Source: Bacteroidota bacterium
Lineage (GTDB): Bacteria; Bacteroidota; Ignavibacteria; UBA10030; UBA8401
Reading direction: 5' to 3'
Assembly (NCBI GenBank): GCA_021796215.1
Contig: JAJYOK010000006.1
Span: 64,201-128,200 of the forward strand
DNA length: 64,000 nucleotides
Made by a program: the position numbers and the translations under genes. The notes under the pieces are model-generated. The model had not been told where the DNA came from. It did not search any database and worked only from the letters and a program-made list of their open reading frames with translations. Below are positions 47,293 through 55,816 of the stretch, one piece after another (positions within the stretch are counted from its first letter, which is position 1; each line of letters begins with the position of its first letter).

Positions 47293-47346
47293 ATGAGCAG
47301 TAAAAGCAAGCATTCTTATTTTAGCATTGGGGGGTGGCATGCATGA
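47293..47346 (+). CDS. 17-residue peptide with a strong ribosome site
   Basis: MSSKSKHSYFSIGGWHA. GGAGG lies five bases before the ATG, one of the best ribosome sites in the window. The frame overlaps the start of the AraC-type gene (ATG 47339) by eight bases. It could be a translation-coupling leader or a tiny signalling peptide; the Gly-Gly near the end is reminiscent of processed leaders, but that is weak. It could also be the first codons of a truncated gene. Confidence 0.35.
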   Translation: MSSKSKHSYFSIGGWHA

Positions 47347-47746
47347 GGAAAAAATAATCGCCATCGTAAGAAACAGATTTGCTGATTATCAATTTACTGT
47401 TGAGAAATTAGCAGAGGAGGCGGGAATAGGGGTGTCACACCTGAGAGAAAAAGTTCACCTTTATTATAAAATGTGTCCGCAGGAACTTATTGAAACAGTT
47501 CGGTTGGAAAATGCCCTGCGGCTTCTCTGCAAAAATCATGCACAAAGCCTTTATGACGTTATTCCGCAATGCGGCTATCGCTACGAGAGAACATTTCTTG
47601 ATGCGTTTGAGAAACGGTTGGGTGCAACGCCGACTGTATGCCGAAACGCTCTTTGTGCAAACGAAGCTAGGTTGAAAAACTGGATAGAGAAATTGTGGAT
47701 GAATGGACTAAACGGTTTGCCCACCGAAGAGCATTTTGGTTCGTAG
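47339..47746 (+). CDS. Stand-alone AraC-type helix-turn-helix protein
   Basis: 135 residues. The whole protein is about one AraC DNA-binding domain: FTVEKLAEEAGIGVSHLREK forms the first helix-turn-helix, and LYDVIPQCGYRYERTFLDAF with EKRLGATPTVCRN the second. There is no ligand-binding or receiver domain. It lies at the left end of the island, upstream of the radical SAM gene and in the same direction, and is the only regulator there. ATG at 47339 overlaps the upstream 17-codon frame. Confidence 0.75.
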   Translation: MHEEKIIAIVRNRFADYQFTVEKLAEEAGIGVSHLREKVHLYYKMCPQELIETVRLENALRLLCKNHAQSLYDVIPQCGYRYERTFLDAFEKRLGATPTVCRNALCANEARLKNWIEKLWMNGLNGLPTEEHFGS

Positions 47747-47914: not shown

Positions 47915-49344
47915 ATGCGGACATCAAGTTATACTATTTTTGCTCAGATTCCAAGGTCGGAAGAGCAAATACTTGTTCATGGTTATACAGGGGCAATTGA
48001 TATTGTTTCACAAAGGCTCATAAGTAATTTGAAGGAAGAGAATTTTGGCGCATTAACTCCGAAAGAAATAGAGGTGTTAAGTAAGAGAGGTTACATTACA
48101 ACAAAAAGCAAGGAGGAAGAATATAAACGCGTTGAGTTGTTAGCGCGGCTATTTCATAAGAAAGCATCTCGATTTCATTTGTTCATGTTTCTTGTTTCCT
48201 ATGATTGTAATTTTCGCTGTCCCTATTGTTTTGAGTCAAGTATATCAGCGGCAGGAGAAAATTGGAGTGGTGAAACATTTACAAAGATATTAGTTGATGC
48301 AGCATATGAGGTGGTTGACAAAATAAATTTCACAAGTCCATGGAAAAGTCGAATTATTCTTTACGGTGGTGAACCTCTGCTTGTGAAGAACTCAAATATT
48401 GTTCACTACATTGTTGATAGTGGGTTGAAGCGCGGCTATAAATTTGGAGCGATCACCAATGGCTATGAAGTGGATTCTTATCAAGATATTATCGGTAAGG
48501 ACGCGGTCAATTTTTTGCAAATTAGTCTTGACGGCGGTTCTATAGTTCATAATAATCGTAGGAGACATTATACAGGAGAGGGCACATTTTATAAAATTTT
48601 TGAAAATATTTCCCTTGCATTAGAGTTGGGCGCTTTTGTTAATGTCCGTATCAATATTGATGAAAAAAACATCTCACAACTTTTTGATTTAGTAAAATTT
48701 ATTTTTTCGAACAAATTCAATGAACGATCAAACTTTCAGTGCTATATTTCTGTAGTTAGAAATTACAACGGAAATGTTTCATCCGAAAATATATCTGTAT
48801 GTAGCAACGGGCTTTGTGAAATCTTTCCGACGGTAAGCAAGCGCAAAGTTTTGAAATTCTTAGAAAGTTTTTTTCAAATACATCCAGAATTTTCATTTAT
48901 TCAGGGGCCAGACTACTGGCTAAAAAGCGAGATTAAGCATGTTATCCAAAGCCGAGGAGCACTCCAATTTCGCGGATCATTTTGCGGGGTCACAGGCGGA
49001 AACCAGATTTTCGATCCGCGTGGTGATATATATACCTGCTGGGGAGATGTTGGGAAGCGATCAGTTAGAATTGGGAGATTTTGGCCAGCATTGAGCTATG
49101 TTAAGGAACAATTGCAAGAATGGAAAGAAAGAACAATAACAAATCTGAGTATTTGTAGTAAGTGCAAATATGCTCTTTTCTGCGGCGGGGGTGCGGCGCA
49201 CTGGCAAAAGCAGAGTATAACACACTTAAGCACTCATTTTGTGATGAATATCCATTAATGTTTGTGAACAGCGTGCGCAAGGCGTATTTGGAATGTGTTT
49301 TACAGAAAGAAATCAGCATGTCTAACTATTCCTTTACAAAATAA
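47915..49344 (+). CDS. Radical SAM/SPASM peptide-modifying enzyme, frameshifted near the end
   Basis: An N-terminal peptide-binding-like region (PRSEEQILVHGYTGAIDIVS) leads into the radical SAM core: C98, C102 and C105 in YDCNFRCPYC bind the 4Fe-4S/SAM cluster, and GGEP follows. A SPASM region carries further Cys: FCGVTGG, YTCWGDVG, CSKCKYALFCGGG. The frame then runs into HWQKQ and stops at 49258. The +1 frame continues as CGALAKAEYNTLKHSF to 49344, giving the expected SPASM ending CGGGC. One G missing from the GGGGG at 49187-49191 explains this; restored length is 476 residues. It may be a true mutation, phase variation or a sequencing error. It probably modifies the peptide encoded next. 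Confidence 0.82.
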
Positions 49345-49442: not shown

Positions 49443-49649
49443 ATGGACAAGGAAAAATCCTTGAAGATAAACGAAGAAAAACCATCAATAAAATCTCTCA
49501 ACGATCTTCTCTATGATAATGATTTATCAATTGAGGAATTAGAAGAGAGATTAGAATTAGATCCGTGGTTCTGTGGTGTTTATTGCAACGAAAACTCAGG
49601 GTGTAACCCCATAGGATGTAGCCCAATAGGATGTACCCAGGTAGCATAA
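49443..49649 (+). CDS. Cys-rich RiPP precursor-like peptide
   Basis: 68 residues from ATG at 49443, with an excellent AAAGGAGGTGA upstream. The acidic leader (about 1-40) has the amphipathic LSIEELEERLELDPW often seen in radical SAM/SPASM substrates. The core has five Cys at 44, 48, 54, 59 and 64 (C-x3-C-x5-C-x4-C-x4-C), with a tandem PIGC repeat: CNPIGCSPIGC. It begins 98 bases after the radical SAM gene. Thioether or other Cys-based crosslinks are plausible, but the chemistry is unknown. The leader/core cut site is not defined. Confidence 0.78.
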   Translation: MDKEKSLKINEEKPSIKSLNDLLYDNDLSIEELEERLELDPWFCGVYCNENSGCNPIGCSPIGCTQVA

Positions 49650-49805: not shown

Positions 49806-49839
49806 AATATTTTCATGGGTGATGAGAGGATTTGAAAAA

Positions 49840-51018
49840 ATGAAGCGGTTTTATTTCATCATAGTGATGTGGCTTGCTACTTTTTTTTCTTCAGGAGAAT
49901 TGGCGGGGCGACAAGTTGCTTCTGTAGCTGTTCCTAATGTTTACGTGGATAGTATCGAAACTGCAAAACGAGTGCTTTTTTTAACTTATAGCGAGCAATA
50001 TAATGAAGCTTTGGCTCTCGTTGAGAGAATGGCAGACGAGAATCCAAGTTCGATACAATGGAAGTATTTTCATGCAATAATATTGTGGAGGAAGCTACGA
50101 GTTCAAAGTTGGGCAACTGGGTATCACGATGAGGTGCTTGTAAATAGAATCGGCAATGAACTTCTTACTCTTAAAAAATTAATTGATGAGGTACCGGATA
50201 GTCTTCGTGCAAAGCCTTATTATTTATTTTATGCAGGTGCAATTTACGGGTATCTAGGTATGTATTATGCAGGCATAAGAGAAGAGAATTTAAAAGCAAT
50301 TAAGGTCGGGGGAGATGGGCTTAACTATTACAAAAAAATACTACAAATAGATACTACCTGTTATGACGCATATTACAGCTTTGGAGTTTATCATTTCTAC
50401 GCGAGTGATGCCCCATGGTATATCAAACCATTGCTTTGGGTATTCGGTGTGTCAGGTTCTGAAGAAAAAGCAGATACTTATTTAACTCTGGCTGCTAAGA
50501 AGAGCACTTTGGCTAAATATGAGGCTATGGAAATGTTAGCAGAGCTATATGTTAGAAGGAGATTGATTGATTCTGCTGTGATTGTATATCGGAAGCTAAT
50601 ACAAAAATTTCCCAGTGCTTATTATTATTACTTAAATCTAGGATGGGTGTATAAAAAGTTCCAGAGAATTGATGAAATGGCAAACGTTTATCAAGAAGGT
50701 GTTAATTATTCGAGAAAAACAGAAACAATAGAAGGAGATAAAGAATGTTTAAGCAACATATATCTCTTGCTAGGTTCTTATTATTCAAGGGTCAATAGAG
50801 TTAGAAAAGCGATTACTCTTTATCAGGATGGATTAGCAAGGAACCTAGGACACTTTGATTGGTGGTGTTATCGCATTGCATTGTGCTATGAAAAGCTCGG
50901 CGACAAAACACAAGCTATTTATTATTATAAGTTGATCCGCGGAGGTGAACTAACGACAGAAGAGATACAAAGGGTACAATCTCGTTTAAATGAGCTGGCA
51001 AAAGATTCCCAACAATAA
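49840..51018 (+). CDS. Exported TPR protein of the island
   Basis: 392 residues from ATG at 49840, chosen because it gives a clean signal peptide (MKRFYFIIVMWLATFFSSG); GTG at 49819 is the upstream alternative. The rest is TPR-like helical repeats, for example SEQYNEALALVERMADENPS, LIDSAVIVYRKLIQKFPSAY and VRKAITLYQDGLARNLGHFD. The family is unknown to me. Exported TPR proteins often act as scaffolds, so it might hold or transport the modified peptide in the periplasm; that is inference. Confidence 0.65.
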   Translation: MKRFYFIIVMWLATFFSSGELAGRQVASVAVPNVYVDSIETAKRVLFLTYSEQYNEALALVERMADENPSSIQWKYFHAIILWRKLRVQSWATGYHDEVLVNRIGNELLTLKKLIDEVPDSLRAKPYYLFYAGAIYGYLGMYYAGIREENLKAIKVGGDGLNYYKKILQIDTTCYDAYYSFGVYHFYASDAPWYIKPLLWVFGVSGSEEKADTYLTLAAKKSTLAKYEAMEMLAELYVRRRLIDSAVIVYRKLIQKFPSAYYYYLNLGWVYKKFQRIDEMANVYQEGVNYSRKTETIEGDKECLSNIYLLLGSYYSRVNRVRKAITLYQDGLARNLGHFDWWCYRIALCYEKLGDKTQAIYYYKLIRGGELTTEEIQRVQSRLNELAKDSQQ

Positions 51019-51054: not shown

Positions 51055-53106
51055 ATGCTTTCTTTTGACGAAATGAAAGAAAAATGTTTTCGTAGTTTTG
51101 AAGAGTCGATTCATGATATTAAGAAAACGGACATGGCGCCTAGCGATGTCCAAATGGGCGAGATTCAGAAATTAAAAGGTAACTTCTATGTAGCATATCC
51201 ATTTCTTTTCGAGTCACATTATACAAACATTGATAAAGAAGCTCTCGAGAAGTTGGCACTAGCAGGAAATATCTATTTCACTTATTTGCTAACTTTTGAT
51301 GAACTTTTTGACGGAGATGCAAAATCATCGGCCATTGTGGTTGCACATCTGCTTCATGAACATGCTATTAATTTATTATATGAAATGTTCCCAGCGCAAT
51401 CACCTTTTTGGAGCCTTTTTAAAAAGTACGAGAATGAATTTCTTTGTTCTGTTACCAGAGAATACAATGCTATTAAAAAAATAATGGAGGGAAAGTATAT
51501 TGATGATAACGATCTAATAATGATGGTGAGAAACAGAAGCTCTTTTGCAAAGTGCGCTACGGCGGGACTGTGGGTGCTGTCAGGTTGCAAGGGAGAGTCA
51601 AATGCATTCGACAAAACTCAAGAGTTTTTTCATGTTGGGCTCCAGATGCTAGACGATTTGAAAGATTGGAAAGATGATTACAGAAAAAAACGGCCATCAT
51701 ATCTTCTTTCTTTAGCCCTTTCTGATGAACGCATTCTGGAAGCATTGAATAGAGCGCAATCAGACGATTATGGAGTTTTAGGTAGAGGAATTTATTATTC
51801 TGGTATTGCTGAAAATCTTCTGCAAACGGCCAAGAACTTCTTCATAGATGCGCTTAAATCTTGTGAGCCTTATAATGTTCCACAATGGAAAATGTTAGTG
51901 GAGAACCATATTAAGGAAATTACCAATGCATGTAATGATCTAAGGGAAACTAAACTTTGGTTGCTAGAAAAACGGGAAAAAGTAAGAATAATTCATTCTG
52001 GGAAAGCTAGATCTTCTCCAAACATGGTAGGTTTAATTGCAAATACACCATACAGACAAACACTTCTGCGAGGGCTCTCCTTTCTACAAATAGAACAGAA
52101 ACACGACTATCCAGAGATGACTCATAGGATGGCATTGCCAAGATTTGATAAAAATAATTCCGGCAACAGTTTCGTAGTATGTAGCAACTTATTCCAAAGA
52201 ACAGTTGTGCTTGATATTTTCATTGATCTCAAAAGGCTGTTAAACGGTGCTGTCGACAAGAAAATTATTTCAGCAGAGTTATCTATCTTAGAAACTTCCA
52301 AAGCTAGATTGGTTCGCGGCGGATGGAGTTACTTTCCAAATTATCCATGGTTACCACCTGACGCTGATGACTTAGCACAAATGATACAAATATTTGTCAA
52401 AACAGCACACCCGCGCATTCACGAGCTCGTAGAGGAACCAATTAAACTTTTAATTGATTCAAACCGTTTTCCCGATGGAACTTTTCGCACGTGGATTCTT
52501 GATCCAAACGATAACAGCGAAATTCAACAAGTGCTTAAAAAAACTGTGGAAACTCATTGGGGCGAACGTTACGGTAAAGATATAGAAGTCACAACAAACA
52601 TGTTGTACGCTTTATTGGTTTATAATAAGGAGAGATATCATACTATCATAAGTAAAGGTATAGCAGCGGTGTTAGCGGCTCAAGCTCCAAATGGTTTATG
52701 GCACAGTGGTTGGTATTGGGGTCCTTTTTATGGAACTTACGTTGCCACTCGATTACTTTCGTCCTCAAGATTTAAAACCGAAAGTTTGCAAATTACAAAA
52801 GACTATTTGATAAATAATCAGCATAACGATGGAGGGTGGGGGTACCGACAAAGTGATCCACTTAACACAGCTCTGTCAATTTTGACTCTCAAGAATATTG
52901 AAGATGCCAACCATGTAATTAGTCATGAAATTTATGAGCGAGCAATTTCTTATTTATCCAGTGAGCAAAAGGTTGCAGGTTCGTGGAGGCAAGTTCCATT
53001 TATAAAGATGTTAATTGGCAGGAAAGAAATAACATATCAAAGTGAAACGATTACAACAGCATATGTTCTTAAAGCACTGGCAAGTATAATGTTTTTTATG
53101 AAATAA
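51055..53106 (+). CDS. Two-domain terpenoid enzyme: class I prenyl/terpene synthase fused to class II cyclase
   Basis: 683 residues. The N-terminal half is all-helical with two Asp-rich motifs of class I isoprenoid enzymes: DELFDGD (82-88) and QMLDDLKDWKDD (197-208), the latter like the QxxDDxxD second motif of prenyl diphosphate synthases. The C-terminal half has the class II acid motif DADD (436-439) and three squalene-cyclase QW repeats: QAPNGLW (543-549), QHNDGGW (589-595) and QKVAGSW (638-644). It may build a prenyl diphosphate and protonate-cyclise it. No signal peptide. GAGGG precedes the ATG. Product unknown. Confidence 0.75.
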   Translation: MLSFDEMKEKCFRSFEESIHDIKKTDMAPSDVQMGEIQKLKGNFYVAYPFLFESHYTNIDKEALEKLALAGNIYFTYLLTFDELFDGDAKSSAIVVAHLLHEHAINLLYEMFPAQSPFWSLFKKYENEFLCSVTREYNAIKKIMEGKYIDDNDLIMMVRNRSSFAKCATAGLWVLSGCKGESNAFDKTQEFFHVGLQMLDDLKDWKDDYRKKRPSYLLSLALSDERILEALNRAQSDDYGVLGRGIYYSGIAENLLQTAKNFFIDALKSCEPYNVPQWKMLVENHIKEITNACNDLRETKLWLLEKREKVRIIHSGKARSSPNMVGLIANTPYRQTLLRGLSFLQIEQKHDYPEMTHRMALPRFDKNNSGNSFVVCSNLFQRTVVLDIFIDLKRLLNGAVDKKIISAELSILETSKARLVRGGWSYFPNYPWLPPDADDLAQMIQIFVKTAHPRIHELVEEPIKLLIDSNRFPDGTFRTWILDPNDNSEIQQVLKKTVETHWGERYGKDIEVTTNMLYALLVYNKERYHTIISKGIAAVLAAQAPNGLWHSGWYWGPFYGTYVATRLLSSSRFKTESLQITKDYLINNQHNDGGWGYRQSDPLNTALSILTLKNIEDANHVISHEIYERAISYLSSEQKVAGSWRQVPFIKMLIGRKEITYQSETITTAYVLKALASIMFFMK

Positions 53107-53111
53107 AATTT

Positions 53112-54428
53112 ATGGCAAAGTTACACAATCATGAAAACAAACGTGTAAAACTTAATAATGATATGTTTCCAGACCGCCTCGTGCCTAATTTATTGAATGA
53201 GATTGAAATTGTTCCAATGGATACCGCCTTTCACCCTTCGAGATATTTGGTCAAAGCTGGAGAAGGGAAAAATTTAGAAATATCTGAGACCTACTATCAT
53301 CTTATAGGTTTAATAGATGGTAAACGTTCCGTTGAAGAAATTTCCATTGAACTAAAAGAAAAATTCAGCATAGATATCCCCCCCCATGAAATTAAAAGAA
53401 TAATAGAAACCTCATTGGTTTCAAGCGGTATAGCGAAATCCGATCTCAACGGAAGAAAGACCACCCATTCAAGATCATACTTGAGCTACAAACATCCGTT
53501 ACTATTACAAAGATCTTTGCTTCCATTTACAAAGATGCTACAAATCCTTTTTGAAAAGCACCTATTTACTTTCCTTGTAAGCGTAGCCCTTGTGTTTGAG
53601 ATACTCTTCTATTTCGTATTTCGGGATCCCTTGATATCAATAATAAAGATTTCAGGAAACGACTTGATTATTAGTTATATAGTTTTCTTTCTATCTTCAC
53701 TGTTTCATGAACTTGGACACTTGTCGGCCTGCCAACGTTATGGCGCCTTATACAAGGAGATGGGAATCGGTATCTATTTTTATTTCCCTGTATTTTACTC
53801 TGATGTCACAGATGCATGGAAATTAAAGCGGAAACAGCGTGCGGTAGTAGACTTTGGAGGTGTTTACTTTCAACTTTTATTACTTCCCTTTTTGCAGGTG
53901 CTTCATGTTATAACAGGCAGCGCCGCATTTATATTTGTCATTTATTTTTTGAATCTAAACATCGCAGCTACACTAAATCCCTTTTTGAGATTTGATGGAT
54001 ATTGGCTTTTGTCTGATTTGCTGGGGGTACCTAACCTTAGAAAGAGATCGAAGGAAATGGTTACTTATTGGAGTGCTAGTATATTTCGAAAGAGAGCTAA
54101 AAAGCCATATTTTATGTCAAAACTTCAGGAACGAACACTTTATTATCTTTTCACATATACAATTGTCTGTAATATATTTTTTATTTTTTTTGCTATAAGA
54201 TTGCTTGATCAATTCACACTTGCTATGTTTTCGTATCACGCGTTGATTAATGATGTTGCGGTATCCTATAGAGAAGGGGTCGGAGCGTTTTTCTCTTCTA
54301 TTACTAAATTCTTTTTTGTGAATTTCATAATATTTTCGGTAGGTCTAATGATTTCGCGTTGGTTGTGGGGGGTAGCGAATCGAATCATAACAGTCGCCAA
54401 GAGAATGCGAATGGTAAATTACTCGTGA
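53112..54428 (+). CDS. PqqD-like domain fused to M50 membrane metalloprotease
   Basis: 438 residues. An N-terminal PqqD/RRE-like winged helix (about 50-110: YYHLIGLIDGKRSVEEISIE) is the fold that binds RiPP leader peptides. A site-2-protease domain follows, with the zinc motif HELGH (199-203) in a membrane helix and the third ligand in NPFLRFDG (289-296); six or more hydrophobic segments are seen. B. subtilis YydH in the epipeptide cluster is a comparable M50 protein. It could cleave the leader or release the modified peptide at the membrane. It begins six bases after the terpenoid gene. Confidence 0.8.
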   Translation: MAKLHNHENKRVKLNNDMFPDRLVPNLLNEIEIVPMDTAFHPSRYLVKAGEGKNLEISETYYHLIGLIDGKRSVEEISIELKEKFSIDIPPHEIKRIIETSLVSSGIAKSDLNGRKTTHSRSYLSYKHPLLLQRSLLPFTKMLQILFEKHLFTFLVSVALVFEILFYFVFRDPLISIIKISGNDLIISYIVFFLSSLFHELGHLSACQRYGALYKEMGIGIYFYFPVFYSDVTDAWKLKRKQRAVVDFGGVYFQLLLLPFLQVLHVITGSAAFIFVIYFLNLNIAATLNPFLRFDGYWLLSDLLGVPNLRKRSKEMVTYWSASIFRKRAKKPYFMSKLQERTLYYLFTYTIVCNIFFIFFAIRLLDQFTLAMFSYHALINDVAVSYREGVGAFFSSITKFFFVNFIIFSVGLMISRWLWGVANRIITVAKRMRMVNYS

Positions 54429-54438
54429 TAGTAATCTC

Positions 54439-55230
54439 ATGAAAAAGATGAAACGGATAATTTTTCTAATTAAAGAGCGTGTGGTGTATGCTGTTATCTT
54501 TTTTTCATTGTCTTTTACATTTTTAGTTCTTGGAGCACGGTTCATATCGAGATCTGCTATAACCGAAGGGCGTTTAAAAGGCGAAAAATTTTTTATTGTG
54601 CTGAACAACATTAATGAAAACGAAAGAGAAATAGTCGAGACCTGCAAGGTTAGCGGGGTAAACCCGCGCATTTTGGGGGCAGCTATCTACTCCGAACGTG
54701 CTTTGAACTACTTGCCTGTTTTTGAAAACATCTTTTCGTTTGCATTTGGCCAAAGTCTTGGCTTTTCTCAAGTAAATATGAATGCTCTGGCGTGGGCACT
54801 CAAAATGCTTTGGCTTCCAACTCAAGATGATAGCATACGATACATTTTGAAGCATGAATCCGAATTTAGCCGGCTCAGAAGATATTTTAGCAAATATCAA
54901 AGGTATAAATTATGGCAATTGAAATTAGAGCTGTGGCGTAATCAAAAGTTTAACATCGCTTGCTCTGCACTTGTATTAAAACTCACCATGATTCGTTATG
55001 CAACAAGTGAAAATGGATTTGATGTATCAAACAATCCAGCTATAGCTTCCACATTATACCATATCAAGTTTCCGCAAAGAATAACTGGTAATTCGGATGA
55101 ATGGGGCAGGCTTTCGGAGAAAATTTTCTTTGATAAACATTTCATGCCAACGACAACATATATGATTTCTGAAGCAGGCACTTCCTCAAGTATATGGGCC
55201 CATAAAAATGAAATGGGGAAAATTCAATAG
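54439..55230 (+). CDS. Membrane-anchored lysozyme/transglycosylase-like protein
   Basis: 263 residues. One N-terminal membrane helix (VVYAVIFFSLSFTFLVLGA), then an outside domain. NPRILGAAIYSERALNY and FGQSLGFSQVNMNALAW resemble the catalytic-Glu and GxxQ segments of SLT-type lytic transglycosylases. The match is by pattern only. It starts ten bases after the M50 gene. Together with the NlpC/P60 remnant that overlaps its end, it suggests a cell-wall step, perhaps passage or immunity for the peptide. Confidence 0.5.
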   Translation: MKKMKRIIFLIKERVVYAVIFFSLSFTFLVLGARFISRSAITEGRLKGEKFFIVLNNINENEREIVETCKVSGVNPRILGAAIYSERALNYLPVFENIFSFAFGQSLGFSQVNMNALAWALKMLWLPTQDDSIRYILKHESEFSRLRRYFSKYQRYKLWQLKLELWRNQKFNIACSALVLKLTMIRYATSENGFDVSNNPAIASTLYHIKFPQRITGNSDEWGRLSEKIFFDKHFMPTTTYMISEAGTSSSIWAHKNEMGKIQ

Positions 55231-55816
55231 GTTAATAGAGAAATATATCTGGTTAGAGCAATCCTCTGTAGAATTTTCCTGTGAATCAGTTAGCCCAAGT
55301 AAGTGGATTGAAATCTTTCTTTGAATATTAATTCTCCTGCCAACTGGATTTTCAGGAGATAAACTCTCAGTAATTAAAAGATGTACTTTAAGTAATCAAG
55401 TTACCTTTTGTGCGCATGATTTTGCAGTTTCAAAAGTCGGTTTGGAATATTTCTGGGGAGGGAACGGTCCAGACTGTTTTGATTGTTCTGGGCTTATCTG
55501 TTGGGCGTACAGGGAAGTAGATTCATCAATTCAGTTTGAAACCCGAATTGGATTATCGCCATGTGCAACGATGCAAGATATCTATGCCTATAACGTTCAG
55601 CTAATCAGTCGGTCTCGGGTAAAATCTGGAGATATAGAGTTTTTATAACTTCGGATTCAAGCAAGATCTCACATGGGGGGCTTTTTGATTGGGTCCGACA
55701 GATTTAACTATGTCAATGCATCTTCATACTATGGCAAAGTATTGATTGACAGTTTTTCAGTATCGGGTTCGATGACGGGTCTGTGGCTTGTGGGGTTCGG
55801 ACGACTGTTGCGTTGA
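55208..55816 (+). pseudogene. NlpC/P60 (C40) endopeptidase, interrupted by two stop codons
   Basis: One continuous frame carries all the landmarks of a C40 peptidase: EYFWGGNGPDCFDCSGLICW with the catalytic Cys, VKSGDIEF, then SHMGGFLIGSDRF with the catalytic His, and VGFGRLLR at the end. It is broken by TGA at 55322-55324 and TAA at 55646-55648. No frameshift is needed. The N-terminal part before the first stop is poorly defined and overlaps the transglycosylase-like gene. Probably non-functional. Confidence 0.6.

Follow-up and report, generated by a model that had tools for sequence, protein, structure and literature searches.

The 683-residue protein encoded at positions 51055..53106 (+ strand) of the window, the whole 64,000-nucleotide stretch of DNA analyzed here, is a prenyltransferase-cyclase (PC) fusion that very likely belongs among the RiPP-tailoring enzymes of the ChrPC kind and is predicted to prenylate a tryptophan of a small peptide and then to cyclize the attached chain. 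Judged by its architecture, genomic context and precursor against the description of ChrPC in a review, the protein is a probable divergent member of this recently discovered kind. This assignment is favored because both folds are predicted for the protein and the motifs are invariant in 17 homologs; because a protease is found at 16 of the 17 loci, with precursors that share a leader and a Trp at the start of 17 of the 20 cores; because an IPP isomerase is encoded in three clusters and two further prenyl diphosphate synthases in the genome; and because of the ChrPC chemistry and the Trp specificity of trans-IDS-like prenyltransferases, as summarized in that review (PMC13290415).

The motifs named in the first-pass annotation are all present. 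In the N-terminal half, DELFD (residues 82-86, with D82 and D86) is the DExxD motif, and the second aspartate motif, QxxDDxxD, reads QMLDDLKDWKDD (197-208, including Q197, D200, D201, D204 and D208), whereas the C-terminal half contains DADD at 436-439 (D436, D438, D439) and three QW-like repeats, near residues 543-553, 589-595 and 638-644. Across 17 aligned full-length fusions, namely the window protein and 16 others that are 26-42% identical to it, all 10 of these Asp and Gln residues are invariant, so the motifs are not chance occurrences. The first aspartate motif departs from the canonical DDxxD in nearly all of the 17 proteins, where it takes the form D-x-x-x-D, with only its first and last Asp invariant. 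A Pfam search matched SQHop_cyclase_C at 6e-12 over residues 419-649 and no prenyl synthase family in the N-terminal half, PF00348 being absent among the matches with E<=1. The window protein has the fold of the canonical trans-isoprenyl diphosphate synthases but neither their DDxxD motif nor the recognition by polyprenyl_synt (PF00348).

The AlphaFold2 model computed from the 17-row alignment (mean pLDDT 86.2, pTM 0.78) consists of an isoprenoid synthase bundle at residues 1-290 (the P half; 51055..51924, + strand) and, past a weak linker near residues 322-325, a class II terpene cyclase barrel at residues 329-682 (the C half; 52039..53100, + strand). When compared with known structures using VIA-align, the P half fits the trans-polyprenyl synthase 4jyx with Z 24.7 and an rmsd of 2.8 A over 276 residues, and the C half fits the class II cyclases 8pak (Z 33.0) and MstE (6sbd; Z 30.5, rmsd 2.9 A over 310 residues). 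The family sequence profile likewise matches squalene-hopene cyclase at 9e-26, MstE at 0.0025 and the trans-prenyltransferase 8hdl at 4.8e-5. The class II half is one barrel of ~350 residues, similar to MstE, and it lacks the two-barrel organization found in squalene-hopene cyclase and in the copalyl diphosphate synthase of plants. The proposal that class I precedes class II in a single chain, which the first-pass annotation had staked on the presence of these two folds, is thus borne out, but the order is less unusual than was assumed there because ChrPC, as described in PMC13290415, is also a fusion of a trans-IDS-like prenyltransferase and a cyclase.

The fusion gene is embedded in a RiPP operon, in the order radical SAM/SPASM maturase, 68-aa precursor, TPR protein, fusion and PqqD-M50 protease, all on the + strand. 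The radical SAM/SPASM peptide maturase (47915..49258), with CX3CX2C at residues 98-105, matches the Radical_SAM profile at 2e-12, CefB (NF038107) at 3.6e-31 and PapB at 5e-26, with scores below the curated cut-offs in the latter two cases (108 bits against 600 for CefB), so that it is not a CefB member by that standard. The precursor ORF (49443..49649) is preceded, a few bases before its ATG, by a strong ribosome-binding site, AAGGAGGTGA, and shares a leader motif with small ORFs in related clusters; it reads MDKEKSLKINEEKPSIKSLNDLLYDNDLSIEELEERLEL / DPWFCGVYCNENSGCNPIGCSPIGCTQVA, with the leader/core split placed at the conserved motif, so that the leader ends with ...LSIEELEERLEL. The core, which begins with DPWFCG, contains five Cys and a single Trp, its third residue. 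The TPR protein (49819..51018; TPR_14 2.6e-11) has a signal-peptide-like N-terminus and occupies the same position in loci L015, L016 and L078, as detected by BLAST. The gene for the protein with a PqqD-like domain and an M50 membrane metalloprotease domain (53112..54428; Peptidase_M50 1.6e-4), a probable leader peptidase, starts 5 bases downstream of the fusion; it scores 117 bits (E 1.1e-33) against the NCBIfam model daptide_HExxH (NF041824), for which the cut-off is 300, and is therefore related to that family without being a member. A protease of this type adjoins 16 of the 17 fusions, the exception being a contig end. Upstream, on the same strand, lies a gene for an AraC-type HTH protein (47327..47746; PF12833 2.2e-14), with a counterpart in L021, which is a possible regulator of the cluster. 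The cluster yielded no Rfam match to indicate an RNA element. Downstream of a 263-aa ORF (54439-55230), an NlpC/P60 domain fragment (55442-55648; Pfam 7e-9) lies between stops and looks like a decayed gene.

Compared with its seven closest relatives, the radical SAM gene of the window shows a break of the reading frame near 49165-49185, within a five-G run at a conserved CGGGC. The final SPASM Cys is lost through this break, as is the C-terminal end, the relatives' version of which continues in another frame. Either an assembly error or a genuine loss could be the cause; in the latter case, the peptide of this strain would be prenylated, perhaps without the other modification.

The position of the tryptophan stands out among the features of the precursors. 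Most clusters contain small ORFs whose leader carries ELExRLE and then L, M, T or F, with minor deviations; a precursor search by Cys content alone missed several of them, and the leader motif recovered these. A Trp is located within 9 residues past the leader in 17 of the 20 leader-motif precursors; in 20,000 composition-preserving shuffles of each core, the average was 7.1 and the count never exceeded 15. The 20 precursors are not independent, however, several coming from one genome or from close clades. None of the 20 leaders contains Trp, and 18 of the 20 cores contain exactly one. No leader-motif precursor was found in the examined DNA of L017, L019, L022, L023, L025, L031, L041 and L081.

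Three precursors depart from the pattern and, together with the five Cys of the window core as possible acceptors, count against Trp as the prenyl acceptor: those of L040 and L044 lack Trp, and in L038, the Trp is near the C-terminus. Prenylation of a core Cys by an enzyme of the same plan would accommodate the five Cys and also L040, where only the P half is present and the core is Cys-rich without Trp. Such S-prenylation nevertheless appears improbable, given that the L030 core has no Cys yet keeps its Trp, that the Trp position is the most regular feature of the cores, and that the characterized trans-IDS-like peptide prenyltransferases covered in PMC13290415 all modify Trp. As for the enzyme's own second aspartate motif, the Gln at position -3 of this motif also occurs in ordinary prenyl synthases, so by itself it is no proof of a Trp acceptor.

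Equally hard to sustain is the possibility that the protein is a stand-alone bifunctional terpene synthase, the N-terminal half making GGPP or ionizing a diphosphate and the C-terminal half cyclizing it to a small-molecule terpene, with the peptide genes being neighbors that have another job. The second aspartate motif looks canonical, the fold is that of the chain-elongating prenyl synthases, and the IPP isomerase encoded in three clusters (in L020 and L081 above the curated cut-offs, in L025 clearly similar but below) would suit chain building as well. All of this is countered by the D-x-x-x-D form of the first motif, by the constant pairing with a PqqD-M50 protein and a leader-sharing precursor, by the regular position of Trp in the cores, and by the two ordinary prenyl diphosphate synthases encoded elsewhere in the source genome, which make the fusion dispensable as a source of GGPP or FPP. 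Accordingly, of the two activities suggested in the first-pass annotation, prenylation of a partner is the one favored, and a self-contained synthase that both makes and cyclizes a prenyl diphosphate is disfavored by the RiPP operon and the other two synthases. A diterpene synthase with reversed domain order was also dropped as the best reading, given the RiPP context and the monodomain class II fold. Least probable of all, and at odds with the invariance of DxDD in 17 divergent proteins and with the reported cyclization of the prenyl group by the ChrPC C domain (PMC13290415), is a role for the cyclase half that does not involve the prenyl chain, for example as a scaffold or in peptide binding, which would leave a linear prenylated peptide, even if P-only (L040) and C-only (L028, L043) relatives suggest that the halves can work apart.

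For the favored route, that is, prenylation of the peptide followed by cyclization, the following sequence of events can be proposed. Judging by the fold and motif, the P half would bind a prenyl diphosphate supplied by the cell, likely C15-C20, through Mg2+ at D82/D86 and ionize this donor. The chain would then be moved to the Trp of DPW in the 68-aa precursor, the only Trp of its core, as suggested by the precursor statistics and the characterized relatives, with the QxxDDxxD region presumably accommodating the indole where IPP would otherwise bind. Still attached to the peptide, the polyene would pass to the C half, where D438 is expected to protonate its distal double bond and so set off a cation cascade that would produce fused rings, in keeping with class II chemistry and the invariant DxDD. 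The radical SAM enzyme would modify the core cysteines, with crosslinking being probable, and the PqqD-M50 protease, to go by its family, would cut off the leader.

Two surveys identified the 16 further full-length fusions with DxDD. The full-length DxDD proteins are scattered among Ignavibacteria, Flavobacteriaceae, Weeksellaceae, Cytophagales, Sphingobacteriaceae, Saprospiraceae, Chitinophagaceae and Balneolaceae, and Gemmatirosa carries another fusion. The distribution of the family is patchy: a match was obtained for 12 of 395 genomes sampled from the whole phylum, in some cases for single halves alone, and among 60 relatives, three had a match, the source genome itself included. The fusion is present in a single copy in the source genome, and no copy was found in 21 genomes of the same genus or family, so that broad duplication was rejected; a mobile or phage origin was discarded as well, no relative of the fusion having been found in viral contigs.

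The Tenacibaculum cluster (L018:7885-14337) encodes two fusions, one with DxDS and one with DxDD, along with three precursors and one M50 gene, and perhaps yields two cyclized products. In Gemmatirosa, the fusion is preceded by a small ORF (L044:7508-7792) whose product contains the leader-like SLEERIEF and two Cys but lacks Trp; its end (PEPATLVLAATGIGAVGLGSYLRRR) resembles a PEP-CTERM sorting signal, and its core may be membrane-sorted. The free-standing relatives of the cyclase half, in Mucilaginibacter and another genome (L028:8186-11080 and L043), lie beside two similar genes, the one tested of which matches a PhyH-type oxygenase, and a gene for a very long protein; no class I or M50 homolog was found in the examined DNA around them. 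On a contig fragment of Methanosarcina spelaei (L032), an HxsB-like radical SAM gene follows the C-terminal end of a homologous cyclase, and this locus is a possible archaeal member of the system. Finally, a distant relative of 749 aa without DxDD or DxDS (L080:4173-10199) is followed by two ORFs, one of them radical SAM-like, and by a very Cys-rich 76-aa peptide; this locus possibly represents a different RiPP class.

Eight clusters (the window, L015, L016, L021, L024, L027, L029 and L078) share a closely related family of radical SAM maturases, all scoring above 660 bits against a joint profile, compared with 113 for the next ORF; in four of them (the window, L015, L016 and L078), the order radical SAM, precursor, TPR, fusion and protease is the same. 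A Cys is found within two residues of the core Trp in all eight radical SAM clusters but in only three of the 10 other Trp-containing precursors (Fisher p 0.004, uncorrected for relatedness, the pattern having been noticed ahead of the test). Separate phylogenies of the two halves, which had been proposed in the first-pass annotation, were built without L080, an extremely divergent protein that lacks the class II motif. The cyclase halves split deeply, with 100/100 support, into a DxDD group (20 rows) and a DxDS group (seven rows), whereas the prenyltransferase halves group otherwise, the DxDS proteins of L078, L079 and L041 lying with the DxDD-bearing lineage of the window. A prenyltransferase tree constrained to unite the DxDS proteins is rejected (AU p 5.7e-5, in the presence of long branches). 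The simplest account of these trees is that cyclase halves would have been exchanged more than once between prenyltransferase lineages. Tentatively, and as a proposal that could well fail, a RiPP subfamily may span Ignavibacteria, Balneolaceae, Saprospiraceae and Chitinophagaceae, its short cores each receiving two chemically unrelated modifications, one by a radical SAM enzyme, at a Cys within two residues of Trp, and one by a prenyltransferase-cyclase adding a polycyclic terpene at that Trp, with exchange of DxDD and DxDS cyclase halves between prenyltransferase lineages, which may vary the ring system. The combination of radical SAM and terpene modification and the domain exchange are possibly the parts likeliest to be new.

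Cyclized terpenes on ribosomal peptides have been reported only recently, with few enzymes so far. The present locus and its relatives form a phylogenetically wide set, including Bacteroidota-group bacteria, Gemmatimonadota and perhaps Methanosarcina, mostly with precursors, that is suited to experiments on the coupling of peptide prenylation and cation cyclization within one protein. The relatives point to peptides that could bear both a radical SAM modification and a terpene, and the natural swapping of cyclase halves suggests interchangeable halves, a property that would be useful for the design of new terpene-peptides.

Among the known systems, the closest is ChrPC (Hubrich et al. 2024, Chem 10:3224, as presented in the 2026 review PMC13290415), a trans-IDS-like P domain fused to a cyclase (C), which uses C10-C20 donors to prenylate a RiPP at an internal Trp and then cyclizes the chain; the window protein shares the trans-IDS-like P domain, the terpene cyclase and, as predicted, the internal Trp of a RiPP precursor as the target. 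Its N-terminal trans-IDS-like fold, its C-terminal MstE-like cyclase with an acid motif and its precursor with an internal Trp are all features of this type. The nearest proxy for ChrPC is the homologous fusion of Chryseobacterium defluvii (L026), 31% identical to the window protein; this fusion may be a close relative of ChrPC. The window protein belongs to a separate Ignavibacteria clade in the trees of the halves. Its cluster differs in having genes for a radical SAM/SPASM maturase and a TPR protein, neither of which was found near L026, and in the Cys-rich core of its precursor. NctPC, another prenyltransferase-cyclase fusion, geranylgeranylates a RiPP Trp and cyclizes the chain with an MstE-like C domain, but, by the account in PMC13290415, its P domain is an ABBA barrel, in contrast to the alpha-helical isoprenoid-synthase bundle of the window protein. 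ComQ and PalQ are Trp prenyltransferases of the isoprenoid-synthase superfamily that act on RiPP precursors without a cyclase half, and ComQ lacks the second aspartate motif (PMC10853753) that the window protein has. MstE is a single-barrel class II cyclase that acts on a chain already attached to its acceptor, as seen in crystal structures with geranylgeranyl dihydroxybenzoate; the C half is alike in fold, but MstE is free-standing and uses a small aromatic acceptor, whereas the window barrel is fused and its acceptor is probably a peptide. The bifunctional diterpene synthases of plants and fungi also combine class I and class II parts in one chain, but there, the class II part, a two-barrel unit, comes first, whereas the window protein starts with the trans-IDS-type bundle, followed by a single class II barrel.
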